The notes beneath the pieces are model-generated. The model was not told the origin of the DNA. It saw only the letters and a program-made list of their open reading frames with translations, and ran no database searches. Source: a virus. From it: a stretch of 64,000 nt of DNA. The stretch is from the IMG/VR virus record IMGVR_UViG_3300032289_001637, positions 1 through 64,000 of that record; one strand, given 5' to 3'. Shown here in pieces: positions 1,164 to 33,379 of this stretch. The translations under genes were made by a program, and so were the position numbers. The first letter of the stretch is position 1. Every line of letters begins with the position of its first letter.

Positions 1164-1185
1164 TGTCAGACCCCTGTGGTATGAT
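1164..1185 (+). promoter_or_regulatory. TGTCAGACC-type promoter, copy 1
   Basis: TGTCAGACC (1164-1172) is followed 7 nt later by the extended -10 TGG-TATGAT (hexamer 1180-1185). No normal -35 hexamer sits 17 nt upstream of the -10. The box-to-hexamer distance (16 nt start to start) is identical in copies at 2650 and 5241. It would drive the gene at 1216 with a leader of about 24 nt. Confidence 0.6.
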
Positions 1186-1215
1186 GAATCATAACCTACT
1201 AAGAAATGAGACACA

Positions 1216-2010
1216 ATGCCAAACTGGGTATTTAACACATTAGTTGTATCTGGCGAACAGTCAGAATTAGATAAAATGGTTGAGCAATTAAATCAACCTT
1301 TTGTAAAACATTTTCCTGAACACAAATTTGAAAATGGTGAAATTGTTTGGGTTGCTGATGAACAGCACTATGACAATCCTGTCTTTGCTTTTTGGAACAT
1401 TGTAAAACCAACCGACCTTGAAGCATACTATGAAAGAGATACTTTCAAAGGTAATAAGAACATCAAGGTAAATGAAGATGGCAAAATGGACGGCGAATCT
1501 TTTATGCAAGAGTTTGTTCGCTCTATGAAAGAAGACCAAGACTGGTATCATTGGAACTGCCGTAACTGGGGAACTAAGTGGGACGTATCAGTTTCTAATG
1601 ACAATCAGTATCCAAACACTATTAAAACAGTTAATGATGATGGTTCTATCTTGTACCAATTTGAAACCGCTTGGAGTCCTGTTGGTGAGGTTCTAATGAA
1701 ACTATCAGAACAATACCCAACTCTTAACTTTGACTATGAGTATGAGGAAGAGCAAGGCTGGGGTGGTGCTTGTACATTCTTAGGTGGAGAAGACATTGCC
1801 TGTTATGAGTATGATTCCCCAATGTCTCACGCTGACCACAAGGAACGAGATAAAGAATGTATCTGTGAGTATGGAGACCCTGAAAACGGGTATGAAGATT
1901 GCCCTGTGGATACCACTAAATTCAAGTGGGATTCAGAACTAGAGGAATGGGTAGAATTGTCAGACCTCTCTGATACACTAGTTTCAACAACCAACCTACA
2001 AGGAGAATAA
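1216..2010 (+). CDS. Api92-like / YubB ferredoxin-like domain protein
   Basis: 264 residues. The N-terminus (MPNWVFNTLVVSG) is the hallmark of the Api92-like / YubB ferredoxin-like domain found on phages and plasmids. Later blocks rich in W, such as ETAWSPVGEVL and a GWGGACTFLGG segment, fit that family. The C-terminal third is acidic and has a Cys-containing stretch (CICEYG, DCP) that could bind a metal. The function is unknown. No strong Shine-Dalgarno precedes the ATG, and the start is set by family similarity. The gene lies 1 nt before the next gene, so the two are probably co-transcribed. Confidence 0.7.
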   Translation: MPNWVFNTLVVSGEQSELDKMVEQLNQPFVKHFPEHKFENGEIVWVADEQHYDNPVFAFWNIVKPTDLEAYYERDTFKGNKNIKVNEDGKMDGESFMQEFVRSMKEDQDWYHWNCRNWGTKWDVSVSNDNQYPNTIKTVNDDGSILYQFETAWSPVGEVLMKLSEQYPTLNFDYEYEEEQGWGGACTFLGGEDIACYEYDSPMSHADHKERDKECICEYGDPENGYEDCPVDTTKFKWDSELEEWVELSDLSDTLVSTTNLQGE

Positions 2011-2011
2011 A

Positions 2012-2512
2012 ATGGACGTTCAACTTCCAGAAACAAATGCAACATTCGTTAAAGAAATGGTAGAGGCAGGAGAACTTAAGCCTCTCTACGACCCAAAGGC
2101 AACCATTGTTGTCCGAAAGGGTTACTACTACGGTACACCGTCAGACTCAAAGTTTGAACTAGAAAATGCAGACGACATTTCAAGAGCATTCTGGAGAGTT
2201 GATTCGCTTACAGAAACTAACAACAGATTTTCAAGGTCACTAGACAAGTTAAAAGATTATCTTGTTGAGAACTTTGATGAGATTGGTGAAGAACACGCAA
2301 CTGAAATTGCAAGCATCTTTAGCATTGACTTATCTAAAGAAGTTGAAGTTGAGTTTAATGTAACAATCAAAGCAACTATCTCTATGCCTGTCAACGAAGA
2401 TGTGTCTGACTTAAGTATCTATGACTTTGACATCACAATTGAATCAAATGAATCTAAGTATGAGATTTTAGATTCTGATGCAGACATTGATTCGATAGAT
2501 GAAAGATACTAG
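2012..2512 (+). CDS. acidic hypothetical protein
   Basis: 166 residues, strongly acidic in the C-terminal half. I do not recognise a family. The ATG follows a good AAGGAGAATAAA site and starts right after the stop of the Api92-like gene, so it is the second gene of a two-gene unit. A stem-loop element and a new promoter follow it. Confidence 0.75.
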   Translation: MDVQLPETNATFVKEMVEAGELKPLYDPKATIVVRKGYYYGTPSDSKFELENADDISRAFWRVDSLTETNNRFSRSLDKLKDYLVENFDEIGEEHATEIASIFSIDLSKEVEVEFNVTIKATISMPVNEDVSDLSIYDFDITIESNESKYEILDSDADIDSIDERY

Positions 2513-2539
2513 GTTTATCTAGTAGGTAGGTAAAAGTGC

Positions 2540-2562
2540 TGAGCATCACTTTAAACTGCTCA
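2540..2562 (+). other. TGAGCA/TGCTCA stem-loop element, copy 2
   Basis: TGAGCA (2540-2545) and TGCTCA (2557-2562) form a perfect 6-bp inverted repeat. The loop ends in the TTTAAAC that is conserved in the other copies. It is followed by a GCTGCGCCCCCCC run (2569-2581), which is the reverse complement of the GGGGGCGCAGC that follows copy 1. It lies in the gap between the gene ending at 2512 and the promoter at 2650. Confidence 0.5.
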
Positions 2563-2649
2563 CTCAAGCTGCGCCCCCCCATTTAATAAGTCTATTAGTC
2601 TTAATATATGATTAAGAAGACATGAAAAAATCCCCAAGCCGTGCAAAAT

Positions 2650-2671
2650 TGTCAGACCCTTGTGATAGGAT
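2650..2671 (+). promoter_or_regulatory. TGTCAGACC-type promoter, copy 2
   Basis: TGTCAGACC (2650-2658) with the extended -10 TGA-TAGGAT (hexamer 2666-2671), at the same spacing as at 1164 and 5241. It drives the run of small genes beginning at 2701, whose ATG has an AAGGAAAG ribosome site. Confidence 0.6.
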
Positions 2672-2700
2672 ACAAGTATCAGCCTACGAAAAGGAAAGTA

Positions 2701-2868
2701 ATGATTGACACAACAAATCCTTTGCTAGAAAAATTAGCATTTGAGATAGCAGACCTACACAATGTTGGTGGCATTGAATTAGAACAATGGCAAACTGCTT
2801 ATGAATTTGTAAAGCATTTTTATCATACAGAAGAAATGGTTCAGATAGTTATTAGGGGTAAAAAGTAA
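2701..2868 (+). CDS. small hypothetical protein
   Basis: 55 residues, no family recognised. The ATG at 2701 is chosen over an upstream in-frame ATG at 2641, because the upstream codon lies inside the promoter and the 2701 ATG has AAGGAAAG just before it. The stop overlaps the next ATG by one base (TAATG), so the two are translationally coupled. Confidence 0.65.
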   Translation: MIDTTNPLLEKLAFEIADLHNVGGIELEQWQTAYEFVKHFYHTEEMVQIVIRGKK

Positions 2869-3125
2869 TGACATACTTAGTAGCAACAACAGAAGTAATT
2901 TATCAAGAAGCAGATTTAATAAAGATGATGTTAGATACAGGTGAGTATGGTATTCATGGACACCCAATTAGCCATGAGGCTATGGTTGAGTTTGTTAAAG
3001 ATCAAGAATGGCAAATAGAACATAATTTATTCCTTGACAAATTTGATGTACCTTGCCAGATTTCAATTAAAGATGAGGACGGCACAGACCTATTCTTTGC
3101 CAAGAACAGAGTGGAGATAGTGTAA
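2868..3125 (+). CDS. small hypothetical protein
   Basis: 85 residues, not recognised. It is coupled at both ends by TAATG overlaps with the genes before and after. It belongs to a run of small genes that share one promoter at 2650. Confidence 0.65.
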   Translation: MTYLVATTEVIYQEADLIKMMLDTGEYGIHGHPISHEAMVEFVKDQEWQIEHNLFLDKFDVPCQISIKDEDGTDLFFAKNRVEIV

Positions 3126-3370
3126 TGAAACTAAGAGGAATCTTTGAGGGAACTTTTGAATCTGTATGGAGTATGGAAGTACCACAAGCAGAGTGGGACT
3201 CTTATCTAGAACTACACCCTGACTTTGACGAAAATGATCGTGACGACATACAAGAGATGTGGGAACATTTCAAGAGCATTGGTTGTTATGATGAGATTGA
3301 CGACACGGTAGACACAGATGTAATTATGACAGGTATAGAAACCTATGGAGTAGAAGTGGAGATCAACTAA
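3125..3370 (+). CDS. small acidic hypothetical protein
   Basis: 81 residues, rich in Asp and Glu (for example DFDENDRDDIQ near residues 33-43), which gives a strongly negative protein. Not recognised. Small acidic phage proteins are sometimes DNA mimics or host-takeover factors, but nothing here proves that. Coupled to both neighbours by TAATG. Confidence 0.65.
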   Translation: MKLRGIFEGTFESVWSMEVPQAEWDSYLELHPDFDENDRDDIQEMWEHFKSIGCYDEIDDTVDTDVIMTGIETYGVEVEIN

Positions 3371-3576
3371 TGATGCCCTTGTATTGGTATGATGTAGAGT
3401 TTGTATTTGAACACATGGTTATCATTGTTAATACTGGATTTCCTGAACCGCCAGATGAGCAAGATGATGAAAAGGCGTTTGTAATTGAACAAGCAACTAA
3501 AGAACTAATGGCTAACTATAAGATAGACCCAGCAGTCTTGTTTGTGCAAGACATAATCGTACACGAGTGGGAGTAG
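3370..3576 (+). CDS. small hypothetical protein
   Basis: 68 residues, not recognised. It begins with two successive ATG codons (3370 and 3373) after a TAATG overlap, so the exact start is uncertain by one codon. A hydrophobic YDVEFVFEHMVIIV stretch near residues 7-20 is too polar to be a clear membrane segment. Confidence 0.6.
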   Translation: MMPLYWYDVEFVFEHMVIIVNTGFPEPPDEQDDEKAFVIEQATKELMANYKIDPAVLFVQDIIVHEWE

Positions 3577-3577
3577 T

Positions 3578-3709
3578 ATGTTGATGAACAAGGTCAAGTG
3601 CTGTATGTGTGACGCTACATTTCTAGAGTATGAAGATGAAATGGCATTTAGTTGCATAGAGTGTGGCAAGGAAGATTATCTAATGGATTTAGGAGAAGTA
3701 GAAGTATGA
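3578..3709 (+). CDS. tiny zinc-ribbon protein
   Basis: A 43-residue protein with two cysteine pairs: CCMC near residues 8-11, and C-x2-C (CIEC) near residues 27-30. This is the spacing of a minimal zinc ribbon. It fills the gap between the neighbours: it starts 1 nt after the previous stop, and its TGA overlaps the next ATG (ATGA). Its role is unknown; similar mini zinc ribbons bind nucleic acid or protein. Confidence 0.6.
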   Translation: MLMNKVKCCMCDATFLEYEDEMAFSCIECGKEDYLMDLGEVEV

Positions 3710-3939
3710 GCAATCAATACCATTGGGTAGTTGTGTATGACGAAGATTGGGGAGCCTTTATGGTAGACATAGAAACAACTATGGCAAAGCTTTCAGAAGA
3801 GCAAGGTGTTGTTTACAACAAGGATAGTGGAAAGTGGGAGTTTATGGAAGAAGGCTCTGAACTACATTTAGAGTATTTGAGGCTAGAAGAAATCCTGGCT
3901 TATAACCTAACACGTCTTGACTTAACAGAGAAAGTGTAG
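3706..3939 (+). CDS. small hypothetical protein
   Basis: 77 residues starting MSNQYHW. The ATG at 3706 overlaps the stop of the zinc-ribbon gene (ATGA) and has AGGAGAAG upstream. An in-frame ATG at 3652 is rejected because it would sit within the zinc-ribbon gene. No family recognised. Confidence 0.65.
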   Translation: MSNQYHWVVVYDEDWGAFMVDIETTMAKLSEEQGVVYNKDSGKWEFMEEGSELHLEYLRLEEILAYNLTRLDLTEKV

Positions 3940-3951
3940 TAGGATACGGAT

Positions 3952-4185
3952 ATGATTACATTACCTAAAGAACTACATTTATCAAGAACTATTACATATG
4001 ATGTTCAGAATATTGCAGAGAATATTTTAGACATGGATATGGAAAGAGACCCAAACAGCGTTACTCTTCAAGAGATTGTTGATTTTATTAAAGACTGGGT
4101 ATATGAAGATTTTGGAACTATGCAAAACTTTACCGTGCGTATGGAAAATGAAGACGGAGAGTATATAGGAGATATCAATGACTAA
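3952..4185 (+). CDS. small hypothetical protein
   Basis: 77 residues, not recognised. It has the purine-rich TAGGATACGGAT before the ATG. Its 3' end overlaps the next gene by 8 nt. Confidence 0.6.
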   Translation: MITLPKELHLSRTITYDVQNIAENILDMDMERDPNSVTLQEIVDFIKDWVYEDFGTMQNFTVRMENEDGEYIGDIND

Positions 4186-4612
4186 ACTATTAGAAGGCGT
4201 TACAGTAGAATACACACAGACAATACCAACCTCAAAACAAATGCCAGAGTTTTATGTGTGGCAGGAGGGTGCAGAGTCTTATGCAACTATCACATACTTG
4301 GACCGTGTGGTAGAGATAGAACGTAATGGTGAGATGAGTCTAACACTACCAAACTTAGTTAATGGTGAACTTTCAGATGAAGGTGTCACTATTGTGAGAT
4401 ACTCTGACGACTTAGAGGCTGCAGGTATCAACGATGACATTCAGTTGATGCAGTTTATTAAAACTATTAGTAATAGTGGATTTGAAATCTATCGTATGAA
4501 TCCTTGGTGGGAAGTGTTTGCACACAACGAAGATATGGGTGAAGTGTACGACACATTCTACGAAGCAATTGATGCTGGTATTGATCACATTTTAGATGAT
4601 AGGAACTGGTAA
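4178..4612 (+). CDS. hypothetical protein
   Basis: 144 residues, the largest of this run. Aromatic residues are frequent (MNPWWEVFAHNED near residues 107-119). No family recognised. Its start overlaps the previous gene, and its TAA shares a base with the following ATG (TAATG). Confidence 0.65.
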   Translation: MTKLLEGVTVEYTQTIPTSKQMPEFYVWQEGAESYATITYLDRVVEIERNGEMSLTLPNLVNGELSDEGVTIVRYSDDLEAAGINDDIQLMQFIKTISNSGFEIYRMNPWWEVFAHNEDMGEVYDTFYEAIDAGIDHILDDRNW

Positions 4613-4767
4613 TGGAAGAATCAGTTAATAGATTTATCAAACATACCGTGCTTAACTTAGAACGAGCATTGGAACTAGATGATGATGAACTAACTCTAGC
4701 AGTCTTAATAAACTTATCAAGTGTGATAGAATCCTATGTGGAGGCGATGCAACTTGAGCGAGTATGA
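4612..4767 (+). CDS. small helical hypothetical protein
   Basis: 51 residues, acidic and predicted mostly helical. It starts in a TAATG overlap and ends with TGA at 4765-4767, overlapping the next gene by 14 nt. The intact coupling at both ends is the main support; no homology is apparent. Confidence 0.5.
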   Translation: MEESVNRFIKHTVLNLERALELDDDELTLAVLINLSSVIESYVEAMQLERV

Positions 4768-4978
4768 AATTATAGATTATCTTCTAATTAACTTTATAGA
4801 GCCTGGAGATTTAATTAATTTTGCAGGTGAAGATTTTAGGGTATTAGAGATAGAACCATCAGATGATGGCTGGATATTAGAGGTGTTAGATAGAATGGAA
4901 GATCAAATAGATTTATTTGTTCCTGATGACTCTGTAATAGCCTTATTATCTGAGGGCATGGAAGTAACAGAACAATAG
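4754..4978 (+). CDS. small acidic hypothetical protein, TTG start
   Basis: 74 residues starting at TTG 4754 (MSEYEIIDYL). A strong GGAGG at 4740-4744 is placed 9 nt upstream of this TTG. The alternative in-frame ATG at 4736 would contain the ribosome site itself, so TTG is preferred. The protein looks like a small beta-rich fold (GDLINFAGEDFRVLEIEP), possibly SH3- or Tudor-like, but this is only an impression. Confidence 0.55.
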   Translation: MSEYEIIDYLLINFIEPGDLINFAGEDFRVLEIEPSDDGWILEVLDRMEDQIDLFVPDDSVIALLSEGMEVTEQ

Positions 4979-4980
4979 AT

Positions 4981-5009
4981 TTGACAATTCCGTCAAAAAC
5001 TGGTAAGAT
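4981..5009 (+). promoter_or_regulatory. sigma-70 (SigA-type) promoter
   Basis: TTGACA (4981-4986), a 17-nt spacer and TAAGAT (5004-5009) preceded by TGG, so it is both a consensus -35 and an extended -10. It is followed by a leader with AAGGAGAG before the ATG at 5041. Confidence 0.85.
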
Positions 5010-5040
5010 AAATAACAAGGTAACTCTTAAGGAGAGAACT

Positions 5041-5202
5041 ATGACAAGAGAGCAAATGCGTACTCTAAAGAAGCAACGTTTCACGTCACTAGAAAAGTGG
5101 GGCGACACAGAGCGTGTAGTAATTCGTGATGGTCTAGGACATTTTGTACATAACACAAACCTAACATCACTACGCCGCAACAAGGTAGTTAAGTCCCGTT
5201 AA
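5041..5202 (+). CDS. small basic hypothetical protein
   Basis: 53 residues, rich in Arg and Lys, so possibly nucleic-acid-binding. The ATG at 5041 follows AAGGAGAGAACT. An in-frame ATG at 4978 is rejected because it lies in the promoter. It is a single-gene unit: strong promoter at 4981, terminator at 5214. Its isolation and strong signals suggest high expression. Confidence 0.7.
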   Translation: MTREQMRTLKKQRFTSLEKWGDTERVVIRDGLGHFVHNTNLTSLRRNKVVKSR

Positions 5203-5213
5203 GGCTGGCTGGA

Positions 5214-5241
5214 GGGGCAGGGAAGGTCCTTGCCCCTTTTT
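5214..5241 (+). terminator. intrinsic terminator
   Basis: GGGGCA (5214-5219) pairs with TGCCCC (5231-5236), closed further by AGG/CCT, followed by five T. It is a classical rho-independent terminator for the 5041 gene. The T-run overlaps the next promoter box. Confidence 0.9.
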
Positions 5242-5262
5242 GTCAGACCTTAATGCTAGAAT
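5241..5262 (+). promoter_or_regulatory. TGTCAGACC-type promoter, copy 3
   Basis: TGTCAGACC (5241-5249) with the extended -10 TGC-TAGAAT (hexamer 5257-5262), the same 16-nt register as the copies at 1164 and 2650. The start site falls at about 5269-5271, on the ATG of the next gene, so the mRNA should be leaderless. Confidence 0.6.
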
Positions 5263-5270
5263 GGAATACT

Positions 5271-5486
5271 ATGGGAAAAACACCAAACGAGAAAATAGCA
5301 GACAAACTAATTGCCCTATTTTCAGACAGTAGAATCGGAATCGTAGATTGGCAACACTACATTCCATTTTACATCACACAGCAAAATAAACAAGTTATTT
5401 CAAGTGCTAAAAATCTGGCAGACGGAATAAATGAACAAATTGCTGATAGGGAAATTGGATTAGACAGAGAACAGTTAGGAAAGTAA
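5271..5486 (+). CDS. small hypothetical protein (leaderless)
   Basis: 71 residues, not recognised. The ATG at 5271 lies 8 nt after the -10 hexamer and has no Shine-Dalgarno, which fits leaderless translation. An in-frame ATG at 5253 would lie upstream of the -10. The TAATG overlap couples it to the next gene. Confidence 0.6.
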   Translation: MGKTPNEKIADKLIALFSDSRIGIVDWQHYIPFYITQQNKQVISSAKNLADGINEQIADREIGLDREQLGK

Positions 5487-5776
5487 TGTTAGACATAAGA
5501 GAAAAAGCAGAGATCATTTTTGAATTCATTAATGACTATCGAGGTGACGAAGCCTTTGAAGATTTCTTTTCATACAATGATTTAGGCGTACCACTTGCGG
5601 TAATGATTGTAAATGATTTAGTTATTCTTAATGAGGGTGGAGTAGAAGTAATTGATGAAACTTGGAAAAATCTTTGTGAAAATCTAAATGAAGCAAACCC
5701 AGAGTATGACTATGAAAGTCTTAATGAACTAATTGAATTGGCTGTTCCTTTTGAAGATCAGGAAGAGCAAGAATAG
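5486..5776 (+). CDS. acidic hypothetical protein
   Basis: 96 residues, strongly acidic, ending in a Glu-rich tail. Not recognised. It is coupled to the preceding gene and followed after 6 nt by the tRNA-Met gene, so the tRNA is probably cut out of this transcript. Confidence 0.65.
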   Translation: MLDIREKAEIIFEFINDYRGDEAFEDFFSYNDLGVPLAVMIVNDLVILNEGGVEVIDETWKNLCENLNEANPEYDYESLNELIELAVPFEDQEEQE

Positions 5777-5965: not shown

Positions 5966-6493
5966 ATGACTATAGTAATAGGACTCATAGATAATGGTAT
6001 TGTATATATGGGATCAGATAGAGGTATGTCTGATGAATATTCTATATCTTCTCCTATTACCCCGAAAATAAAAAAGAATGGACAATTCTTAATTGGGTAT
6101 GCATCTTCCAGGGGATCAGGACAAGTAGCTCATTACATTGATTTTCCAAATGTATTAAAAAAAGATGTAGATAAATATATGAGAACAGATTTTATATTTA
6201 CTTTGAAGAAAGCTATAGAACCATATGGTATTGATATATCAGATGATGATAAGGCAGCTGCAGATTTTTTGGTGGGAATTCATGGAAGACTATTTCAAAT
6301 ATCTACTAATGACTGGCAAGTAAATGAATATGATAAATATATAGCTATAGGATCTGGTAGTCAATTTGCAATAGGATCTCTTGATACTTCTTATACCTGG
6401 AAAGATCCAAATAAAAAGATTACGAAGGCATTAGAAGTCGCCATAAATAATTCACCTCAATGTATATATCCAATTGATATTTTACATTCTTAA
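5966..6493 (+). CDS. proteasome/HslV-like Ntn-hydrolase
   Basis: 175 residues that read like the Ntn-hydrolase (proteasome beta / HslV) fold. After Met1 comes Thr2, the expected catalytic N-terminal nucleophile. A beta-strand with GSDRGMS follows, then an FLIGYASSRG strand-turn, a FLVGIHGRLF strand, and the YIAIGSGSQFAIGSL signature near residues 127-141, followed by a helix of the ALEVAI type. Such short stand-alone members exist in bacteria and phages, but their substrates are mostly unknown. The -10 to ATG spacing suggests a leaderless mRNA, which would leave Thr2 exposed after Met removal. It is the last plus-strand gene. Confidence 0.7.
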   Translation: MTIVIGLIDNGIVYMGSDRGMSDEYSISSPITPKIKKNGQFLIGYASSRGSGQVAHYIDFPNVLKKDVDKYMRTDFIFTLKKAIEPYGIDISDDDKAAADFLVGIHGRLFQISTNDWQVNEYDKYIAIGSGSQFAIGSLDTSYTWKDPNKKITKALEVAINNSPQCIYPIDILHS

Positions 6494-15943: not shown

Positions 15944-16587
15944 CCTTGTGGACCTGCATGTCTATGCCATTTGTTATGTCTAACAATACTTTTTCCATTA
16001 CATTTCATAACATATTTATTTCTTACTCTGTAAGACCACTCAACATCTTCTTCTTCATTCCATACAAGACTTTCATCAAGTGGTTCTTCAATCATTACAT
16101 GACGCTTAACCATAAAGAATCCACCAGAAATATACATATATTGAGTTTGAGACCAATCGTTATAGTCTAAAGACCATGCTCTTCCATAACCAGGCTTATC
16201 CCAAAGAGACCAGTCCATTGGATTTCTTGCACCTGTAATTAAATATTGTGGGCAAGAGCAGATTTCCCAATCAGTTCCAAATTCAACAAAGTTTTTATAC
16301 CAATCTTTATCAAAGATATGGTAGTCATGCATTAAAACTATATTTTCATACTTAGCTTCTTTTACAAGAATATTCTTTTTTCTAGTAATCCATCTTTCTT
16401 TTACTGACTCATCAAAATTAATTTTTCTAATATCAACACCATCAATACTAGAACTATCTCCACCACCAACAAATAAAATTTCATACTCTGGGATATTAAG
16501 ATTACGAATGCTTTCTATGATCTCTTGAAGTCTCTGTTTATCTTCATAAACTGTTATAATTCCAAATGTCCATTGGATATCATTCAT
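15940..16587 (-). CDS. family 2-like glycosyltransferase
   Basis: 215 residues: a GT-A fold with a FGIITVYED first strand, ILFVGGGDSS, a DYHIFDKDWY metal-binding-like DxD/DYH site, and SGGFFMVKR plus WNEEEDVEWSYR, the ED motif typical of GT2 enzymes. It starts within the end of the ftsZ-like gene (8-nt overlap), so the two are co-expressed. Confidence 0.75.
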   Translation of the reverse strand: MNDIQWTFGIITVYEDKQRLQEIIESIRNLNIPEYEILFVGGGDSSSIDGVDIRKINFDESVKERWITRKKNILVKEAKYENIVLMHDYHIFDKDWYKNFVEFGTDWEICSCPQYLITGARNPMDWSLWDKPGYGRAWSLDYNDWSQTQYMYISGGFFMVKRHVMIEEPLDESLVWNEEEDVEWSYRVRNKYVMKCNGKSIVRHNKWHRHAGPQG

Positions 16588-17515
16588 TTACAAAGCCTGT
16601 CGCTATTACAGTTACTAGAATACCATCCTCAAGATCTGTATCTAAAACTGTTCCAAATATGATGTCAGCATCTTCATGTGCTTTTTCTGAAACTAATGAG
16701 GCTATCATGCTTACCTCAGACATTTTTACATCTCCAGAAGATGCAATTGAAATCAAAACTCCAGTTGCACCATTTAAATCTACATCAAGAATAGGACTTG
16801 TAATTGCTTCATTACCTGCAATTGCAGCACGATTATCTCCAGATGCATAACCAATTCCCATAAATGCAGATCCTGCATCTTTCATAACTCTTTTAATATC
16901 TGCAAAGTCAATGTTAATTTGACCAGGAGTTGTTACTAAATCTGATACTGCTGCTATTGCTTTTAGTAAAATGTTATCGGATTCCTTAAAGGCATCTTCC
17001 ATTGATATATCTGAATCTAGCATAGAAATAAGATTTTGATTTGGAACAACAATTAAGGTGTCAACTTCCTTGCTAAAACTATTAATTCCCTCTAAGGCAT
17101 TTATCATACGCTTCTTGCCCTCAAACCCAAATGGCGTAGTTACAATGCCTACAGTTAAAGCTCCAGCCTTTTTAGCAGCCCCAGCCACTATTGGTGCAGA
17201 GCCAGTTCCAGTTCCTCCACCCATTCCAGCCGTTACAAAAACAACGTCAGCACCTGAAACTACTTCAGAAATTTCATGAATACTATCTTTTGCCGAAAGT
17301 CTTCCTATATTTGGATCTGCTCCAGCACCAAGACCGTTAGTTCTATCTCTTCCAATATCAACTTTAACATCTGCCAAACTTGGCATTAATGCTTGAACAT
17401 CAGTATTTATTGCAATAAACTCTACGCCAGATAGACCTGATTTTATCATTCCATCTACAGCGTTAACTCCTCCACCACCACAACCAATGACTCTTATATC
17501 AATTAAATTACTCAT
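16580..17515 (-). CDS. ftsZ: FtsZ homologue lacking the C-terminal tail
   Basis: 311 residues, a true bacterial-type FtsZ. The N-terminal GCGGGGVNAV (11-20), IAINTD (35-40), the tubulin signature GGGTGTG (99-105), PNQNLL-like block (158-162) and T7 loop NIDFAD (201-206, with Asp203 and Asp206) are all present, so GTP binding, hydrolysis and polymerisation look possible. The protein stops right after the GTPase core (VTVIATGF). It has no linker and no C-terminal peptide of the D-I-P-x-F type that binds FtsA, SepF or ZipA. It could co-assemble with or poison the host Z-ring, or form its own filament. TATAAT lies 5 nt before the ATG. The gene is followed by glycosyltransferases. Confidence 0.93.
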   Translation of the reverse strand: MSNLIDIRVIGCGGGGVNAVDGMIKSGLSGVEFIAINTDVQALMPSLADVKVDIGRDRTNGLGAGADPNIGRLSAKDSIHEISEVVSGADVVFVTAGMGGGTGTGSAPIVAGAAKKAGALTVGIVTTPFGFEGKKRMINALEGINSFSKEVDTLIVVPNQNLISMLDSDISMEDAFKESDNILLKAIAAVSDLVTTPGQINIDFADIKRVMKDAGSAFMGIGYASGDNRAAIAGNEAITSPILDVDLNGATGVLISIASSGDVKMSEVSMIASLVSEKAHEDADIIFGTVLDTDLEDGILVTVIATGFVNE

Positions 17516-20267: not shown

Positions 20268-20522
20268 TTATAGCTGTCTTTCATCATTATACTTTATATC
20301 TAGAATTGGGTCAAGTGTCACATTCGCACCTAAAGATTCTAAGATATTTTTTACTCTCGTCATATACTGTATACAACGAAGCCTTTCGTTGTCATTTAAA
20401 TGTCTCCAATGGCTTTCATAAAATTGGATAGCAAGAAAATGATTATAGTCTACAATTGCTATTTCAAAATCTTTTGGAGGCTTTACGCTTCTAATAGCAT
20501 GTCTCATGTTATCTGTATACAT
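20268..20522 (-). CDS. hypothetical protein
   Basis: 84 residues, alpha/beta, not recognised. It lies between whiB and ssb with a one-base overlap to whiB, so the three are probably co-transcribed. Confidence 0.6.
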   Translation of the reverse strand: MYTDNMRHAIRSVKPPKDFEIAIVDYNHFLAIQFYESHWRHLNDNERLRCIQYMTRVKNILESLGANVTLDPILDIKYNDERQL

Positions 20523-20803
20523 TAGTCACTCTCCATTGTAATTGCAGACCAGATATCAAACCAATTAGTCTTTTCTTTATGACTATTAAATTCTTTAGAT
20601 ATCTTTCCGCCCTCCAAATAAACGCCACCCCAAACACCCCATTCAGCATTACTAACTCCATATGCTAAACATTGTCTTTGTACTGGACACCTTATACACA
20701 AAAGATCTACCTTTTTTGAAACTTCTGGATTTTCTTCATATTGATCAAAGAAAAGATTTGTATCCATATTAAGGCATAGAGCTTTTTCATCAAACTTGTA
20801 CAT
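20522..20803 (-). CDS. WhiB-family Fe-S transcription regulator
   Basis: 93 residues. The four cluster cysteines are at 10, 36, 39 and 45 (C...C-x2-C-x5-C), preceded by the LFF block (17-19) and followed by the GVWGG turn (56-60), all diagnostic of WhiB. WhiB proteins bind a 4Fe-4S cluster and region 4 of the housekeeping sigma factor, and are confined to Actinobacteria and their phages. The C-terminal basic helix is short. It probably redirects host RNA polymerase or represses the host whiB2-type division regulon, as known for mycobacteriophage WhiB. Confidence 0.95.
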   Translation of the reverse strand: MYKFDEKALCLNMDTNLFFDQYEENPEVSKKVDLLCIRCPVQRQCLAYGVSNAEWGVWGGVYLEGGKISKEFNSHKEKTNWFDIWSAITMESD

Positions 20804-25855: not shown

Positions 25856-26616
25856 TACGCCTTCCTAAATTTAGCTTTTGCATTAAATAACCATTTGTTT
25901 ATTTTAATCTCACCATTACTATTTGTTTTTGTATAAGTTCTATCTGTAATATTATAGTAGGTTATTCCAGACTGTTTAATATCTGGGGTACTATATACAA
26001 CCTTGAACATATCTTTATCTAAGTTAAACTTATTACATCCTTCTTCAACAAGTTTTTCCATTCTTAAAAACTTTTCAGATTCTGTTTTATTTATCCAGGG
26101 CAAACCAGTTTTATGAGTAATATTCACTGCTGGATTACCACCATATACAGAATTTTCTTCCATGTTTTTTATAACAACAGACCCAAGCATAGCCATTGAT
26201 TTATCTTTTGCAATTATTGGGGAAACAAAACATTCTCCAACAAACCAAACATCATTTCCAATTATTAACTCTGACTCTTTTTCATACAGGCATCCTTCTG
26301 TAACATCCCCATGTCTGATATGAGAGTACAGTCCAGATCCTATTCCTACTCCAAGAAAGTCTCCTGCCCAAAGCTTTCCAGTTCCATCAAGAACCACCCT
26401 CTCTCCAACCCAAGTAGCTTCCCCTAGCCTGACTACTCCACTAGCATTAATAAAACAATTTCTATTAATCTTTGAGTAATCTCCGATAAAAAGATCTCCA
26501 CCCCCAAGGATTTTTACACCCTCACCAATTTCAACATTGTCTCCAATTTCAAATGAATTAAATTCTCCAATGAATTCAACCGAACTATGAATTTTTGTAT
26601 TGTATCCTATTTTCAT
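25855..26616 (-). CDS. left-handed beta-helix (hexapeptide) acyltransferase
   Basis: 253 residues with a long run of hexapeptide turns between about residues 10 and 180 (IGDNVEIGEGVKI, IGDYSKI, IGNDVWFVGECFVSP) ending VYGGNPAV, as in WbbJ/Maa-type O- or N-acetyltransferases. A C-terminal extension of about 70 residues is unassigned. Placed after the aminotransferase, it probably N-acylates the aminosugar. Confidence 0.88.
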   Translation of the reverse strand: MKIGYNTKIHSSVEFIGEFNSFEIGDNVEIGEGVKILGGGDLFIGDYSKINRNCFINASGVVRLGEATWVGERVVLDGTGKLWAGDFLGVGIGSGLYSHIRHGDVTEGCLYEKESELIIGNDVWFVGECFVSPIIAKDKSMAMLGSVVIKNMEENSVYGGNPAVNITHKTGLPWINKTESEKFLRMEKLVEEGCNKFNLDKDMFKVVYSTPDIKQSGITYYNITDRTYTKTNSNGEIKINKWLFNAKAKFRKA

Positions 26617-27344
26617 AATTCATCTCCTGAACTGTATGGATCTGGTCTGTTTCCAAGTTGCTGTGGATAAATACCTTTATATTGAGCAACACATTCATTT
26701 GCATGACACTTTCCAAAAGCTGCCTCTAGCTGCTGATACAAGTTTGCGTCTAAGGCAACAGTTTGTGGAGATGGAAATTTTATTCCTGCCTCTTTAAAAT
26801 TATTAAGTCTCCAAGAAACCTGGCTTGCGTCTACAGTGTTAGCTGGAGAAATAGAACCTTCTCTATGATTTAACATATTATTAAAATTATCTTCTAATGT
26901 TTCAAAACTAATAAAATCATTTGGATTATAGATAGAAACTTTACCATAAGAGTAAATTGAATTTGGATTATTGTTATAGAAATTAACAAGATTCTTTAAG
27001 TAATCTTTATACAAAGCATCATCATCACAAAGTATAAAAGCTATGTCAGCATCAGACTCTTGCATAGCTTCATTTAACATCTGCCCATGCTTACTTCCAC
27101 CCTGATTTTTCTTTTGTTCTGGAGAGTCTCCTGTTGCATAAAACTTAATTTTTTTTAAATATTTTTTAGAAAAAATTTCTTCAACTATTGGCTTTCCTAA
27201 ATAGTTTATTCCATCATCACAAAAAGCTACCTCCCAATTATGGTAAGACTGCCTTTTTATTGATTCTAAGGCAGTCTTAACCATATTAGGTCGTTCAAAA
27301 TATGCAAGCAATATTAAAACTTTCATATCTTTTTTTTTAGGCAT
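26613..27344 (-). CDS. family 2 glycosyltransferase
   Basis: 243 residues. It has a VLILLAYFERPNMV start, SIKRQSYHNWEVAFCDDG (GT2 nucleotide-binding), and FILCDDDALY (DxD metal site, about residue 106). The ATG at 27344 overlaps the stop of the RmlB-like gene (TAATG); longer in-frame starts lie inside that gene. It would transfer the sugar made by its neighbours. Confidence 0.88.
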   Translation of the reverse strand: MPKKKDMKVLILLAYFERPNMVKTALESIKRQSYHNWEVAFCDDGINYLGKPIVEEIFSKKYLKKIKFYATGDSPEQKKNQGGSKHGQMLNEAMQESDADIAFILCDDDALYKDYLKNLVNFYNNNPNSIYSYGKVSIYNPNDFISFETLEDNFNNMLNHREGSISPANTVDASQVSWRLNNFKEAGIKFPSPQTVALDANLYQQLEAAFGKCHANECVAQYKGIYPQQLGNRPDPYSSGDEL

Positions 27345-28357
27345 TACAGAGAAAGCCATTCTTCGTGCTTTAAAGTCCACTCTACAGTCTTCTGAATAGA
27401 TTCTTCAAGAGGTATTGGAAGCTTCCAACCAGTCTCAGAGATCTTCTTTCCATCCAGGGCATACCTTAAGTCATGACCTGGACGAGAAGAGTGGAAGTCT
27501 TCTAATTCATACCTCAATGGCTTCCCAACTGCTTTTGCAATCATCTGAGCCATTTCCAAGTTGTCTACTTCTCTTTCACCGACAATGTGAAATTTTGCTG
27601 GTACATTAGATTCTCCATATGCTGGGAAGTGTTGCTTAAGAACATGTAGAAGTCCATCTGCTTGATTACGAGCATGTAGATAAAAACGAGTTCCAATTTC
27701 TCCTTCTGGAGATGCATGTATCTTAACAGTTTCCCCATTAAGAACTTTTTTAATTACCATTGGCATAAACTTTTCTGTGTCTTGAGTTTCTCCAATAATA
27801 TTCATGGTATTAGTAATTGCAAGAGGAACTCCATAAGTCCTCCAGTATGAGAATGCAATGCTTTCTTGTGCTGCCTTTGAAGCGGAGTATGGATTGCTTG
27901 GGAAGAATTGGTCTACCCACTCTTTATGAGCATACCCCTTTGGAGCTGGACCATAAACTTCATCAGTTGAAATATGCAAGAACTTTTCTGGCTTTGCAAC
28001 TCTTGCCCAGTCAAGTAAATTACAAATTAAAGATACATTGTTTAATATAAAAGGAGTTGGCTCTTCTATGCTTCTATCAACATGACTTTCACTAGCTACA
28101 TTTATAACATAGTCAATTTTTCCAAACTGATGTGAAGTTACTGGAGAAATTGGTGCAGTCAAGTCTGTCTTAATAACTTTAATACGACTATAAGCATCTG
28201 GCAAGTCATCACATGCCACGTTTATTCTATCTGTCAAACCTTTATGTGTAAATGTTGTTGGACATACCACAAACCAGTCTGTATTAACTAAAATATGTCT
28301 AAGCACATGGCTACCAACAAATCCACTAGCACCTGTTAAAAGAACTCTTTTACTCAT
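27344..28357 (-). CDS. RmlB-like NAD-dependent sugar-nucleotide 4,6-dehydratase/epimerase
   Basis: 337 residues, an extended short-chain dehydrogenase. GASGFVG (9-15) binds NAD, STDEVYG carries the catalytic Thr-Asp-Glu of dehydratases, YSASK is the Tyr-x3-Lys pair, and RPGHDLRYA near residue 295 is typical of RmlB. It likely turns an NDP-hexose into the 4-keto-6-deoxy form for the aminotransferase. First gene of the block, 15 nt after the terminase gene. Confidence 0.9.
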   Translation of the reverse strand: MSKRVLLTGASGFVGSHVLRHILVNTDWFVVCPTTFTHKGLTDRINVACDDLPDAYSRIKVIKTDLTAPISPVTSHQFGKIDYVINVASESHVDRSIEEPTPFILNNVSLICNLLDWARVAKPEKFLHISTDEVYGPAPKGYAHKEWVDQFFPSNPYSASKAAQESIAFSYWRTYGVPLAITNTMNIIGETQDTEKFMPMVIKKVLNGETVKIHASPEGEIGTRFYLHARNQADGLLHVLKQHFPAYGESNVPAKFHIVGEREVDNLEMAQMIAKAVGKPLRYELEDFHSSRPGHDLRYALDGKKISETGWKLPIPLEESIQKTVEWTLKHEEWLSL

Positions 28358-28372
28358 GTTTTTCCTTTTCTG

Positions 28373-30157
28373 TTAAATTAAATTAAAATTTATGAGATAA
28401 TCTCTAATGTCTTCTGTCATCTCAGGTTTAGATTTTATCACATTATCAATATCTTTGTCAACTTTTGGACGAGATTTGTATGTATGAATTTCTACTTCCT
28501 GAATCTTTTCTCTTCTTGTATGGCTGATTGCATTGTATACAGATCCGCACATAGCATCTGCAAGGTCCTTAGACTTTTTTCTTGGGTGGTCAACTCTATT
28601 ATTATTCATAATTCTAAGCTCTTGCATTTCCTCAAGTAATAAATCTATTTGAGGCAAAACTATTCTTTCTTCATAAATAAGCATGGATAAGTCTTCGTAG
28701 TGTTTTTTAGCTACCGACAAAGTTTCTGTTTTTATTCCTACACTTGTTAAGTCTCTTTGAATATCAAAAGAATTCCATCGGTCAAAAGTTACTAAGCCAA
28801 GATTAAACCCAAGTCTCCTTAGATTAATAATCCAATTTTTTACTTCTGACAAATCTACTGGACCTTCTTTTTTTGGCTCCCAATAAACAATAGCATCAAC
28901 TACAATAAAAGGAACTACTTGCTCATACCCATTAAAAGATTGAAGACTTACCCACTTATCAACATGGCAAATAGAAACTGCACACTTATCATGCTTTTGT
29001 GCCAAGTCAGCATGAACGTAGTATGTAATTTCAGGATCTGGCTGAAAAGAGTGTTCTATTCTTTTTGAAACATCAATTGGATTAATTTTTTTAAATGCCA
29101 TAGATAGCTTTTCTCTATTCTTAAAGAATGCATCTGATGAAGTTGTTGGCATACATGCAAAACGCATTTGTGCATCAGCCATGTCAGTTAAGAATGCTAT
29201 CTTAAAGTCTTCGATATTTCTTGTTGGGTTAATTTCCCAAGTTGGTCTTTTTAATGCAAACACTCCAGGAATTCTGTATGAATTAATAACGTCTTCATCC
29301 CATTCAACAGTAAACTTATTATTTGGATCGTCTTCAGAAAGTAATGGGTTAATAATAAACTCATGTGACCTAAGAAGAGTTTCTTTTTCAGCAATTACAT
29401 CTTCATACCTTGTTGTAATAAAGTCACCCTTAAAACGAGGAAAAGATAGAAGTACTACCTTTCCATAATCTGGAAAACGTGAGTCTACAGATCCACGAAA
29501 TGCTTTATAAATATTGTCAGCAGTTTTAGCTTGATCATTTCCACTTGCAGATTCCATTGCAAAGCCAGAAATCTCATCCAAGATTGCAAGTATAAGGTTT
29601 AAGCCTTCAGCAGATTCTCTTTCAGAGTGTCCAGAATAAACTGTAATTGACTTATCAAATTCTATACTATCAATTTTTGGTGGATCAAACTTTCCTGCAA
29701 ACCAAGGTGATCCAGTAATTTTTGTCTTAAATCCTTTAAAAAAAACATTTTTTGCCTGTTGAGCATTGATAGCAACATTCATAATATCAATAGCATCATT
29801 GGTTGGCTTACCAAAATATCTTGATGGATCTTTTAAACATAATAGTTTATAAACTAAGTATGCACATCCAACTGTTGAAGAAAAGTCTTTTCCGCTACCC
29901 TTACCAAGCTGCATAATTATTTCATTTTTTGTATACTTCTTAAAATGTTCTTTACCTGCCTCTTCACCCATAAATCTAATTAAATCTTTTTCTTTGTAAA
30001 TTTGACTCATACATTCTACTAAAGTATATTGATACTCGGAAAGCGGTGGTTGATTTAAATATTTTTCACCTTCAACAAATGTTTTTGCATCTACTGGAGT
30101 TTCTGCAAATGGAGACTCGTCAAGAGCTTCCATAAACTCACTAATATCAATTGTCAA
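28373..30157 (-). CDS. terL: terminase large subunit
   Basis: 594 residues. The ATPase half has Walker A GKGSGKD (85-91) and Walker B ILAILDEISG (about residue 190). The nuclease half starts near residue 370 with YYVHADLAQ, which has the first acidic residue of the RNase-H-like site; further acidic residues follow (VTFDRW, and DAM near the end). It cuts and pumps DNA into the prohead. It overlaps the putative small subunit gene by 11 nt. Its place between replication and sugar genes, far from the tail operon, is unusual. Confidence 0.92.
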   Translation of the reverse strand: MTIDISEFMEALDESPFAETPVDAKTFVEGEKYLNQPPLSEYQYTLVECMSQIYKEKDLIRFMGEEAGKEHFKKYTKNEIIMQLGKGSGKDFSSTVGCAYLVYKLLCLKDPSRYFGKPTNDAIDIMNVAINAQQAKNVFFKGFKTKITGSPWFAGKFDPPKIDSIEFDKSITVYSGHSERESAEGLNLILAILDEISGFAMESASGNDQAKTADNIYKAFRGSVDSRFPDYGKVVLLSFPRFKGDFITTRYEDVIAEKETLLRSHEFIINPLLSEDDPNNKFTVEWDEDVINSYRIPGVFALKRPTWEINPTRNIEDFKIAFLTDMADAQMRFACMPTTSSDAFFKNREKLSMAFKKINPIDVSKRIEHSFQPDPEITYYVHADLAQKHDKCAVSICHVDKWVSLQSFNGYEQVVPFIVVDAIVYWEPKKEGPVDLSEVKNWIINLRRLGFNLGLVTFDRWNSFDIQRDLTSVGIKTETLSVAKKHYEDLSMLIYEERIVLPQIDLLLEEMQELRIMNNNRVDHPRKKSKDLADAMCGSVYNAISHTRREKIQEVEIHTYKSRPKVDKDIDNVIKSKPEMTEDIRDYLINFNLI

Positions 30158-30671
30158 TTACAACTACCCCACCCTCATTAACTTGAGAAAGCTTTGATAA
30201 AACTTTTGGTCTACAAGATTCACATGATGAAGTAACTTCTTTAAGAATACTTATAAGTATTTCTTGCTTTCTTTCTGTTTCTAAAAGTTCATCAGCAAGT
30301 TCCTGATTATCAAGTAACCCTGCTTTTTGTAGCATCTCAAGTCTTTTACCTTCAATATCAGCAATAAGTTTAATAGATGTAGTTTTTGCTGTTAAGTTTG
30401 CAGTAGCATCTGCAGAATCTATAACTTCATATGCTTTTTTAATTAAAGATGAGAAGTGTTGGTCTGCACCAGCAAGGGCTTCTTTTGCACGAGCGTGAAT
30501 TGCCTGATTATTAGCAGCCATCACTCTCCAGTCAGTAAGAAGCTCAGTAACCTTTACTCTAGGAATGTCAAGTATTTTTGAGATCTCTGAAGCATCAGAG
30601 CCTTTTAGATACTCTGAAGCAACCTTGTTAACAAGGTCTAAATGGTTAACTAATGCTGCTTCGCTTGACAC
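30147..30671 (-). CDS. putative terminase small subunit
   Basis: 174 residues with an N-terminal helix-turn-helix (YLKGSDASEISKILDIPRVKVTELL split over residues 19-43), a long helical middle and a C-terminal tail. Order and overlap with terL, plus the HTH, suggest the DNA-recognition subunit. The sequence itself is not a firm family match. Confidence 0.65.
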   Translation of the reverse strand: MSSEAALVNHLDLVNKVASEYLKGSDASEISKILDIPRVKVTELLTDWRVMAANNQAIHARAKEALAGADQHFSSLIKKAYEVIDSADATANLTAKTTSIKLIADIEGKRLEMLQKAGLLDNQELADELLETERKQEILISILKEVTSSCESCRPKVLSKLSQVNEGGVVVIDN

Positions 30672-30933
30672 GTTTACCTCTCTTATTTACTGCCTTTACT
30701 CTGTCAGGATAAAAAGACCTTGTTGGTCCAGAAATATCTTTAAACATTTGAAAGCAATCTATCCATTCTACACCATTTACAGGGTTTTTTACAAGACTTT
30801 TAAACTTAAAAGTAGAACCATGTTCTCCAGTGATCTTTATAAGATCTCCTTCATTTACTTCATGACCGCTTTCAGTTACCATTAAAGATTTTCTCTCAAA
30901 CTTGTCATTGAATATAGTTTTCTTTTTAGCCAC
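30646..30933 (-). CDS. hypothetical phage protein
   Basis: 95 residues, basic ends, beta-rich centre with a GDLIKITGEHG SH3-like turn and a WIDCFQMFKD block. It resembles small phage proteins of the DUF7246 kind, a weak recognition. Overlaps both neighbours. Confidence 0.55.
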   Translation of the reverse strand: MAKKKTIFNDKFERKSLMVTESGHEVNEGDLIKITGEHGSTFKFKSLVKNPVNGVEWIDCFQMFKDISGPTRSFYPDRVKAVNKRGKRVKRSSIS

Positions 30934-31261
30934 GTTTTTTAGCCTTTTTTAGTAAAAGATAGCCGATTAAATCGTCTTCATCGTTATCACCTGCGTATAA
31001 CTTTTTATTTTTAATTCTATTCAACTTATCATCAATACGAACATTTAACTGCTCCATATCATCTGCATCACTAAAAATACGAATTGGATTAAGAGCAGAG
31101 TTACCATAGGCTACATTCTTTTCTAAAAGCATTTCTGTAATGTCTAAGCAAGCAGCAAGAATGCTGTACCCAGCTGGTGCGGTTTTAGAAAGTTCAAAAA
31201 TCTTTTTAATCTTTTCTTCGTTCTTATTTACATAAAATACTTCTGACGGATATTCAGCCAT
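30926..31261 (-). CDS. nucleotide-modification-associated (DUF1599-like) protein
   Basis: 111 residues. The block KNVAYGNSALNPIRIF, then RIDDKLNRI and a closing EDDLIGYLLL, is that of the DUF1599 / nucleotide-modification-associated domain found on phages, possibly a MazG-like all-helical phosphohydrolase. It would act on a nucleotide; the substrate is unknown. An AGGAGAAAATA site precedes the ATG. Confidence 0.7.
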   Translation of the reverse strand: MAEYPSEVFYVNKNEEKIKKIFELSKTAPAGYSILAACLDITEMLLEKNVAYGNSALNPIRIFSDADDMEQLNVRIDDKLNRIKNKKLYAGDNDEDDLIGYLLLKKAKKRG

Positions 31262-31413
31262 TATTTTCTCCTGCTTTTTCTTAATCCAAATTTACCAAGA
31301 TATACATAAACAGTCTCAACTGAAACACCACATTCTTTTGCAATATCTTCTGGAGATTTTTTATCCACTAAAAATCTTTTTCTTAGCCAATTTTCATTCG
31401 TGTACATTTTCAT
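31261..31413 (-). CDS. small helix-turn-helix protein
   Basis: 50 residues, basic, with one clear HTH (SPEDIAKECGVSVETVYVYLG, read in two parts at residues 20-30 and 31-40) like the resolvase or sigma-70-region-4 type. The ATG at 31413 lies 6 nt after TATAAT (31425-31420), suggesting a leaderless transcript and a possible regulator; a second ATG two codons later is an alternative. Confidence 0.65.
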   Translation of the reverse strand: MKMYTNENWLRKRFLVDKKSPEDIAKECGVSVETVYVYLGKFGLRKSRRK

Positions 31414-31429
31414 AGTATCATTATATCCT

Positions 31430-32017
31430 TTATAAGTCAAGCTTAGTTATCTTATTCCAGTTATTTGTTGCATACCATCCAATAGCAATTGCATCTGCAA
31501 CATCATTATCATTTACATCGGTCATAAATTCTATGTTAACAAGTCTAATAGTTCTATTCTTTCTAAACTCTCTTTCCTTGCCTTTGTACCAAGAGTCTGA
31601 CTTTCCAGGAGTTTGTTTTCTTAATTCAACCTTCTCTTCTTTTGTTAAAACCTTATTTCCAATCCAGTTCTGCCAAGCAACTGGTACGCAAGGGTAGATA
31701 TCTTTTACGCCATTAATATATGCTGCACTAACAATAGCCCCTTGTGCAAGGGCTAACTGCATTGATGTTTTTGGAGAGTTTGCAAAAATAGTATTTTCAA
31801 TTACAACTGCATCAAAATCAAAGTCTTTAAACAATGGAGTAAGTTTTTTACAAGCATCTCCAGCTTTTTTATAATGATCATTTCCAGTAAAATTAATCTT
31901 TCCAAATTTTATTAACTCATTATTTTCAAATATTGCAAAGGCAGCTGAAGTAGAAGAAGCATCTATTGAGATAAATCTTTTTGGCTTTCCAATATCTTTC
32001 CAACTACTTTTGCTCAT
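31430..32017 (-). CDS. RuvC-like Holliday junction resolvase
   Basis: 195 residues, an RNase-H fold. FISIDASSTSAAFAIF (first Asp), VVIENTIF (Glu), and the final DNDVADAIAIG (Asp residues) are the four-acid RuvC pattern. It would cut branched intermediates before packaging. The ATG at 32017 is chosen because the two codons before it (TTG ATT) lack a ribosome site. It overlaps the zinc-finger gene. Confidence 0.85.
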   Translation of the reverse strand: MSKSSWKDIGKPKRFISIDASSTSAAFAIFENNELIKFGKINFTGNDHYKKAGDACKKLTPLFKDFDFDAVVIENTIFANSPKTSMQLALAQGAIVSAAYINGVKDIYPCVPVAWQNWIGNKVLTKEEKVELRKQTPGKSDSWYKGKEREFRKNRTIRLVNIEFMTDVNDNDVADAIAIGWYATNNWNKITKLDL

Positions 32018-32297
32018 AATCAAAAAATCCTTTTATGTCTTTTAAAGTTTGATCAAGTTTTCTTTTACTCATCATACATCCATTACAAAAACCAATATCG
32101 TTATAAATGCTAATTTCTATACCACACCCACCAGAACATTTTCTAGACTTAGTAGCACGAGACTTAACCTTTGAAACCTTGTATCTTTGCATAATCTTTT
32201 CCTTTGTAGCAGTAGACCTGCAATCAGGTGAGCAATATATTTGATTTTTATTATTGCTTTGAAATTGATTATCACATAGTTTACAAAATTTACTCAA
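32004..32297 (-). CDS. double zinc-finger protein
   Basis: 97 residues with two metal knuckles: C-x2-C...YCSPDC (residues 5-26) and C-x3-C...C-x2-C (about 53-74). The first resembles FCS/MYND-like fingers. It is basic, likely binds DNA, and sits between two nuclease genes. Its function is unknown. Confidence 0.6.
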   Translation of the reverse strand: MSKFCKLCDNQFQSNNKNQIYCSPDCRSTATKEKIMQRYKVSKVKSRATKSRKCSGGCGIEISIYNDIGFCNGCMMSKRKLDQTLKDIKGFFDYEQK

Positions 32298-33069: not shown

Positions 33070-33379
33070 TGTTAATCCTAACTGCATATTTCAATGCATC
33101 TACTAGTCTATCCGTTGCTTCTTTAGCTGAATAGTATATATTCTTCTTTGCTCTTTCATCTTTCTTAACATTAGTATACCAGGAAGCAAGCATTGCAAAT
33201 TTAGCAGAATACGCTTGTAGCTTTACAATTAGTTCAACACCAACGGCTGCAGGAACATCTGGTTTAGAAATTAACTTAGCAACCAAAACCAAAGTCTGTG
33301 TGAGTTCATCATCCTGCATATGCTCAGATATTTCATTAAAACCATTTACTTGATTTAATAGTTCAATCGTTGTTTCCAT
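33062..33379 (-). CDS. helical hypothetical protein
   Basis: 105 residues, all-helical, no recognised motifs. It is tightly coupled between the resolvase/nuclease genes, so a recombination role is possible by context only. Confidence 0.6.
   Translation of the reverse strand: METTIELLNQVNGFNEISEHMQDDELTQTLVLVAKLISKPDVPAAVGVELIVKLQAYSAKFAMLASWYTNVKKDERAKKNIYYSAKEATDRLVDALKYAVRINNG

Follow-up and report, generated by a model that had tools for sequence, protein, structure and literature searches.

Introduction

Promoters driven by the WYL-domain activator PafBC have been known so far as DNA-repair promoters of the actinobacterial host. Their motif in Mycobacterium tuberculosis is TGTC[G/A]G-10N-TA-3N-T (PMC8151990), and the consensus of the recA P1 promoter is tTGTCRgtg-8-TAnnnT (PMC5656591). 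In the solved initiation complex, the helix-turn-helix (HTH) of PafB lies on the -26 element and PafC on region 4 of SigA, PafBC being activated by single-stranded DNA (ssDNA) (PMC11804915). Here we describe promoters of this layout in a phage, namely in the first 64 kb (positions 1 to 64,000, hereafter the window) of the 94,158-bp IMG/VR record IMGVR_UViG_3300032289_001637, which has a GC content of 35%. They repeat a box, TGTCAGACC, in front of an extended -10, and serve a block of small genes. Judging from sequence comparison, we consider it likely that these sites are sigma-adaptation promoters, on which host PafBC would act through a -26 element together with SigA RNA polymerase. In the literature searched, no paper was found to report phage use of PafBC promoters.

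Results and Discussion

PafBC-type promoters in the phage record

The initial annotation of this DNA reported a three-copy family, in which TGTCAGACC begins 16 nucleotides (nt; start to start) before an extended -10 at 1164, 2650 and 5241, with no normal -35 at 17 nt. This arrangement is confirmed from the sequence: the -10 regions behind the three boxes are TGGTATGAT, TGATAGGAT and TGCTAGAAT, respectively, all of the form TGnTAnnAT, and the -35 hexamer is absent at each. The three copies are real, but the family had been undercounted. A fourth box lies in the window at 1958, and the whole record carries seven, all on the + strand, with the other three beyond the window (93436, 93706 and 94104). 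Box 1958 is paired with TGATACACT and is located inside the 3' end of the open reading frame (ORF) at 1216-2010, 54 nt before the ATG of the ORF at 2012-2512. The four promoters predicted in the window are as follows.

1164-1185, + strand: P1164, putative -26 element TGTCAGACC at 1164-1172, extended -10 TGG-TATGAT (-10 at 1180-1185), predicted start at ~1192, gene at 1216-2010
1958-1979, + strand: P1958, putative -26 element TGTCAGACC at 1958-1966, extended -10 TGA-TACACT (-10 at 1974-1979), predicted start at ~1986, in the coding end of ORF 1216-2010 and serving ORF 2012-2512
2650-2671, + strand: P2650, putative -26 element TGTCAGACC at 2650-2658, extended -10 TGA-TAGGAT (-10 at 2666-2671), predicted start at ~2678, serving the run of small ORFs from 2701
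5241-5262, + strand: P5241, putative -26 element TGTCAGACC at 5241-5249, extended -10 TGC-TAGAAT (-10 at 5257-5262), predicted start at ~5269, ORF at 5271-5486

The start predicted for P5241 all but coincides with that of the ORF at 5271-5486, and the mRNA is therefore expected to be leaderless or nearly leaderless.

At all seven boxes of the record, TGnTAnnnT follows exactly 16 nt downstream, and all seven sites match the M. tuberculosis PafBC motif to the base. Markov simulations of the same genome gave a chance expectation of 0.47 copies of TGTCAGACC per genome, with a maximum of 2. When the genome was scanned for TGTCRG-Nx-TAnnnT, the matches peaked at N10 (12 matches), every other spacing giving five or fewer. 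An eighth promoter, located outside the window at 93194 on the - strand and divergent from P93436, has the box in its canonical form (TTGTCGGTG-8-TAAGTT); a short leader and an ATG come next. The hexamer TGTC[A/G]G reads TGTCAG in the seven boxes and TGTCGG at 93194(-), and the direction-bound gap of 10 nt between TGTCRG and TAnnnT is kept at 8/8 sites.

The three bases after the hexamer depart from the gtg of recA P1, as they are ACC in the seven boxes and GTG only at 93194(-). We do not treat gtg as defining, because the M. tuberculosis definition omits it and recA sites of the candidate host (see below) show CCC, TCC and ACC. DNA selected by TGTCAGACC also holds 86 TGTCAGTGG, 33 TGTCAGTGC and 22 TGTCGGTGG sites with the same spacing; in DNA selected by the motif, TGTCAG occurs 569 times at the N10 spacing against three times pooled over nine other spacings. 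In the converse scan with TGTCAGTGG, contigs among the matches listed also contain ACC sites, and 97 contigs carry both the ACC and the canonical type. The ACC box preferred by the phages is a new subtype.

Conservation in viral relatives

A scan of viral contigs with TGTCAGACCYYYNTGNTANNAT found the motif in at least 119 stretches, a lower bound from a motif-based selection, which does not give the share of actinophages with this promoter class. Control scans of the same kind gave 4 stretches for the reversed or scrambled box and 6 for TGTCGGACC. In 50 large records, the pattern with at most one mismatch was matched 282 times, usually on a single strand of a given record, and its reversed form 3 times. 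At P1164, P2650 and P5241, the box and the -10 hexamer are identical upstream of homologous genes in four relatives (G023, L012, L121 and L124), where only 18-33% of the 55 nt upstream of P1164 and P2650 are identical (18-25% in the upstream flanks of P1164). The P1958 site is also present in the same four relatives, embedded in coding sequence in which everything is conserved, and the counterpart of P93436 in G023 keeps the box and not the whole -10. The initial annotation, which would have fallen had the motif proved not to be conserved in relatives, is sustained by this search of the full genome and related records: box and -10 are kept while the flanks diverge. The motif is short, and the genome is AT-rich, so that chance occurrence had to be weighed; the scrambled and reversed controls, the conservation of the footprint and the placement of start codons (see below) refute it, leaving it a negligible probability.

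The register is likewise conserved. TAnnnT lies at 16 nt in 380 of the 387 boxes of the record and its relatives' stretches, a count partly selected by the search pattern, with only a minority of the copies being needed to select the stretches. When one mismatch was allowed in the box, TGnTAnn[A/C]T followed at 16 nt in 373 cases and in no more than one case at each of seven other spacings.

The logo of the unique phage sites consists of an A-rich tract upstream, TGTCAG[A>T,C]CC, a C/T-rich stretch, TG (91%), n and TAnnnT; no -35 consensus appears in it, only the A-rich tract beside the box. An A, mostly preceded by a pyrimidine, stands in 76% exactly 7 nt after the -10, where the start is expected. 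Relative to the predicted start, the box occupies about -28 to -20. An ORF begins within 120 nt of the predicted start at 379 of 385 unique sites, 16-40 nt downstream of it at 286; at 29 sites the mRNA would have no leader or almost none, the start codon coinciding with the predicted start at 18 of them. We considered, and dropped, a dyad (TANNNT-nnn-ANNNTA) that would extend across the -10 and +3, as 258 unique sites gave one strong pair only (offsets 20/25).

The initial annotation had taken the fixed register to suggest one activator, an alternative -35 contact or an operator under a single phage regulator. The first two ideas are well supported, since the phage box lies in the same place as the -26 element contacted by the PafB HTH. 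The third, broadened to an operator that a repressor of phage or host origin would bind over self-sufficient extended -10 promoters, could draw on the near-consensus -10, on TGn at 91% of the sites and on the overlap of the box with the RNA polymerase footprint. Nevertheless, the box keeps a fixed distance from the -10 (373 cases against at most one elsewhere) and a single orientation, lacks dyad symmetry and is identical to that of an activator-dependent class of host promoters. We judge an operator very unlikely; one for a phage repressor in particular is disfavoured because the distance is invariant and direction-bound.

Up to 28 promoter copies per record were found among the relatives. 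In record G048 (L069), an array of 27-28 promoters ~190 bp apart, several of them leaderless and each with an ORF of ~50 amino acids (aa), occupies ~26400-34100; 27 lie within 7.6 kb, where the size of the individual ORFs is ~35-70 aa. Among cultured phages, a BLAST search with a consensus 36-mer returned nothing convincing, and none of the 18 whole records searched, from 15 cultured actinophages and 3 controls, contained the PafBC motif with TGn. As the motif is absent from those 15 actinophages and Streptomyces BE-type phages use ordinary promoters, PafBC-type promoters look like a trait of an aquatic phage group rather than of actinophages generally.

Phage-made or host-made factor

No WYL protein was detected in the record itself (0/1) or in 50 related records (0/50), the positive controls being detected, and no sigma factor (Sigma70_r2) was found in 27 records, i.e., this one and 26 related ones. 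With neither protein found in the phages, the simplest assumption is a host adaptor, and the activator is most likely host-made. The WhiB, HTH or FmdB-like phage proteins which the initial annotation put forward as regulators are therefore unsupported and also not needed, the motif being that of the host WYL-domain activator PafBC (WYL in 0/51 records).

A phage-encoded alternative sigma factor, for which the box would be a -35-like element, might account for the fixed spacing, and a sigma-70 factor is indeed encoded by E7 and F5, two isolated phages of Nanopelagicales (PMC10202952). Besides the negative Sigma70_r2 search, however, 16 nt from box to -10 is too close for region 4, and both the -10 and TGn are of the SigA type, so that we regard such a factor as highly improbable.

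A stronger, albeit still unlikely, rival is that the PafBC layout is read by a phage activator without a WYL domain (WhiB-like or another small protein), evolved for a PafBC-like -26 element and perhaps for the ACC form specifically. The prevalence of ACC in phages and its rarity on host chromosomes speak for this possibility, as does the presence of WhiB in 13 of 14 records of 90-115 kb and in the record under study (20522-20803). On the other hand, individual phages combine canonical TGTCRGTG and ACC promoters, and neither G007 (98 kb) nor many of the fragments contain WhiB. Moreover, the phage's own WhiB gene lies in the block on the other strand, distant from the TGTCAGACC promoters, which ill suits an activator of a block that would be expressed first. 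Overall, WhiB was found in 23 of the 50 related records, many of which are fragments, and the promoter sites lack a -35, next to which WhiB would make its contact. WhiB may nevertheless have an accessory part.

The candidate host

Low GC, actinophage markers (WhiB), associations with metagenome-assembled genomes (MAGs) and the literature on aquatic actinophages (PMC10202952) make the Nanopelagicaceae a plausible host family of these phages. WYL proteins were found in 61/61 sampled Nanopelagicaceae genomes. In the three loci read, a tandem pair of WYL proteins of ~300-350 aa is encoded between a methyltransferase gene and the tatC and helicase genes, a setting which we take to be the actinobacterial pafBC neighbourhood. 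The pair that was compared matches the solved PafB and PafC chains (E 9e-47 and 8e-25), and by these matches pafB-pafC orthologues are present in the loci read.

The pattern TTGTCRGNSS-n5-GnTAnnnT occurs 33 times in 101 genomes, against 16 for the reversed pattern, and most matches precede recA, radA, dinB, dnaE2 and imu/DUF6504-like genes, the last label being presumptive, with no library match. The forms before recA include TGTCGGACC-CCCTCTA-TATACT, TGTCAGCCC-CTCCTGC-TACCTT and TGTCAGTCC-TTATCTC-TATCTT; the radA promoter is leaderless, with the ATG on the predicted start, and the repair promoters often overlap a LexA-like box, TTCGAACATATGT. The same promoter class, CC-type extensions included, is thus the DNA-repair promoter of the candidate host family. 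The idea that host chromosomes use exactly this ACC promoter was considered and rejected. In 257 Gb, 14 stretches were found, close to the chance expectation; those that are convincing, namely L133, which has a DUF932 gene, and the record of L136, in which there are six copies, resemble phage contigs placed in bacterial bins.

Other genes with such promoters were encountered in bacterial DNA. In two Nanopelagicaceae genomes (L184 and L194), a PafBC-type promoter precedes the gene for a cysteine-rich protein to which no function was assigned, a candidate new member of the damage regulon; in three (L349, L350 and L351), a nearly leaderless one precedes the gene for a CPBP-like membrane protein. 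Contigs of Myxococcales/Deltaproteobacteria MAGs (L134, L140 and L143) carry TGTCAGACCCC-n-TGATACAATCCGACTCGGG, which precedes an FtsK-like gene in L134 and L143 and hints at a related promoter outside actinobacteria.

Several points weigh against host PafBC as the driver of the phage promoters. (i) The prevailing phage extension, ACC, is unlike the gtg of mycobacteria, and few host sites have it, most showing TGG, TGC or CCC. (ii) A strict match precedes recA in only a minority of the sampled hosts. (iii) The extended -10s, being close to consensus, might be active on their own. (iv) Recognition of the recA P1 promoter has been reported for ClgR as well (PMC5656591). (v) The support comes from comparing sequences, and the host of the phage is a candidate family.

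Genes around the promoters and a possible mechanism

As the initial annotation held, the promoters face an island of small genes. This + strand block spans both contig ends, from 93436 to ~5776, and is served by the TGTCAGACC promoters, while the large genes for replication, packaging and structure (7273 to ~91920) lie, with few exceptions, on the opposite strand. The genes of the block read in the window are:

25-1014, + strand: DUF932 gene at the contig edge (Pfam PF06067, E 3e-50)
1216-2010, + strand: gene for an Api92-like protein (DUF1281_C, Pfam PF18406, E 7e-13), served by P1164
2012-2512, + strand: gene with no function assigned, served by P1958
2701-4978, + strand: run of short ORFs with no function assigned, downstream of P2650
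5271-5776, + strand: two short ORFs (5271-5486 and 5486-5776), downstream of P5241

In relatives, the DUF932 gene is preceded by a PafBC-type promoter (G023 at 2731 and G035 at 96527), and the sequence at the left end of the contig (aaacaaacaaacaaagg...) is similar to the 5' leader behind that promoter; the phage's own DUF932 promoter is therefore probably located just off the contig end. A terminator-like hairpin (GGGGCA...TGCCCC and a T run, ~5214-5240, + strand) abuts the box of P5241, and G/C-rich blocks are also found upstream of its counterpart in relatives, so that the genes look individually insulated. Adjoining the island is a gene for a proteasome-subunit-like (Ntn hydrolase) protein at 5966-6493 on the + strand, with a weak Pfam match (E 6e-5). 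On the - strand, an FtsZ-like protein, unusual for a phage, is encoded at 16580-17515 (Tubulin/FtsZ GTPase, E 1e-44; FtsZ_C, E 5e-29), and a RecA homologue at 33810-34823 (PF00154, E 2e-39). The latter adjoins a replication block with two ssDNA-binding proteins, which is relevant here because ssDNA is the ligand of PafBC.

If the PafBC reading is correct, TGTCAG with its extension would act as the -26 element and TGn-TAnnnT as the extended -10 for SigA, transcription starting ~7 nt after the -10. After infection, host RNA polymerase with SigA, finding no -35, would be held on the phage promoters by host PafBC, the PafB HTH contacting the -26 element and PafC contacting region 4 of SigA. The trigger would be ssDNA, possibly arising from injection, replication or breakdown of host DNA, and the small-gene block would be expressed via the DNA-damage activator of the host instead of a phage-coded regulator. 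These genes are probably early, host-interaction genes, as suggested by the DUF932 homologue, which occurs in two places per record at the ends of Streptomyces BE-type phages. We lean towards the view that a large, probably freshwater, group of actinophages has put such a block under the ssDNA-sensing PafBC of the host, triggered by DNA damage or by the phage's own ssDNA; the ACC form may differ in how it binds PafBC, or a phage-modified PafBC may read it.

The class is apparently the main one in the small-gene block of many phages of aquatic actinobacteria, and if PafBC dependence is genuine, the timing of infection is wired to the damage sensor of the host. The sites offer a ready-made promoter catalogue, including starts and leaderless genes, for a set of phages of which hardly any have been cultured. 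They also provide hundreds of naturally occurring -26 element variants usable for studying sigma adaptation.

Comparison with known systems

The L5-type stoperators of mycobacteriophages are dispersed, asymmetric, co-oriented sites containing TGTCA. They share these properties with the boxes described here, but have no fixed register with a -10, whereas the phage boxes are always in register.

The host-takeover promoter arrays of Streptomyces BE phages such as Yaboi, located in terminal repeats of ~11 kb (PMC5764925), resemble the present block in gene content, with small genes beside a DUF932/945 gene and most genes having their own promoter. The promoters themselves differ, being ordinary TTGnnn-17-TGnTAGACT ones without the PafBC motif. 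In the Yaboi stretch we read (L182, 1-13000), they precede most terminal small genes, many after terminator-like hairpins.

In Streptomyces, AfsR/SARP activators adapt SigA to promoters that lack a proper -35 (PMC11804915). Sigma adaptation would be common to both systems, while the activator family and the DNA site, a motif neither sought nor encountered here, are different.

The closest likeness is to the PafBC promoters of mycobacteria and other actinobacteria. TGTC[A/G]G, the 10-nt gap to TAnnnT, the lack of a -35, the direction-bound layout and the box at about -28 to -20 are all the same, and the phages with these sites also have canonical TGTCRGTG forms, the record studied having one. 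In contrast, the present sites, whose PafBC dependence is predicted, are phage-borne, lie before small genes without assigned function, are present in many copies per genome and mostly carry ACC instead of gtg. Their extended -10 is also stronger (TGn, near TATAAT) than that of host recA sites (TACCTT).

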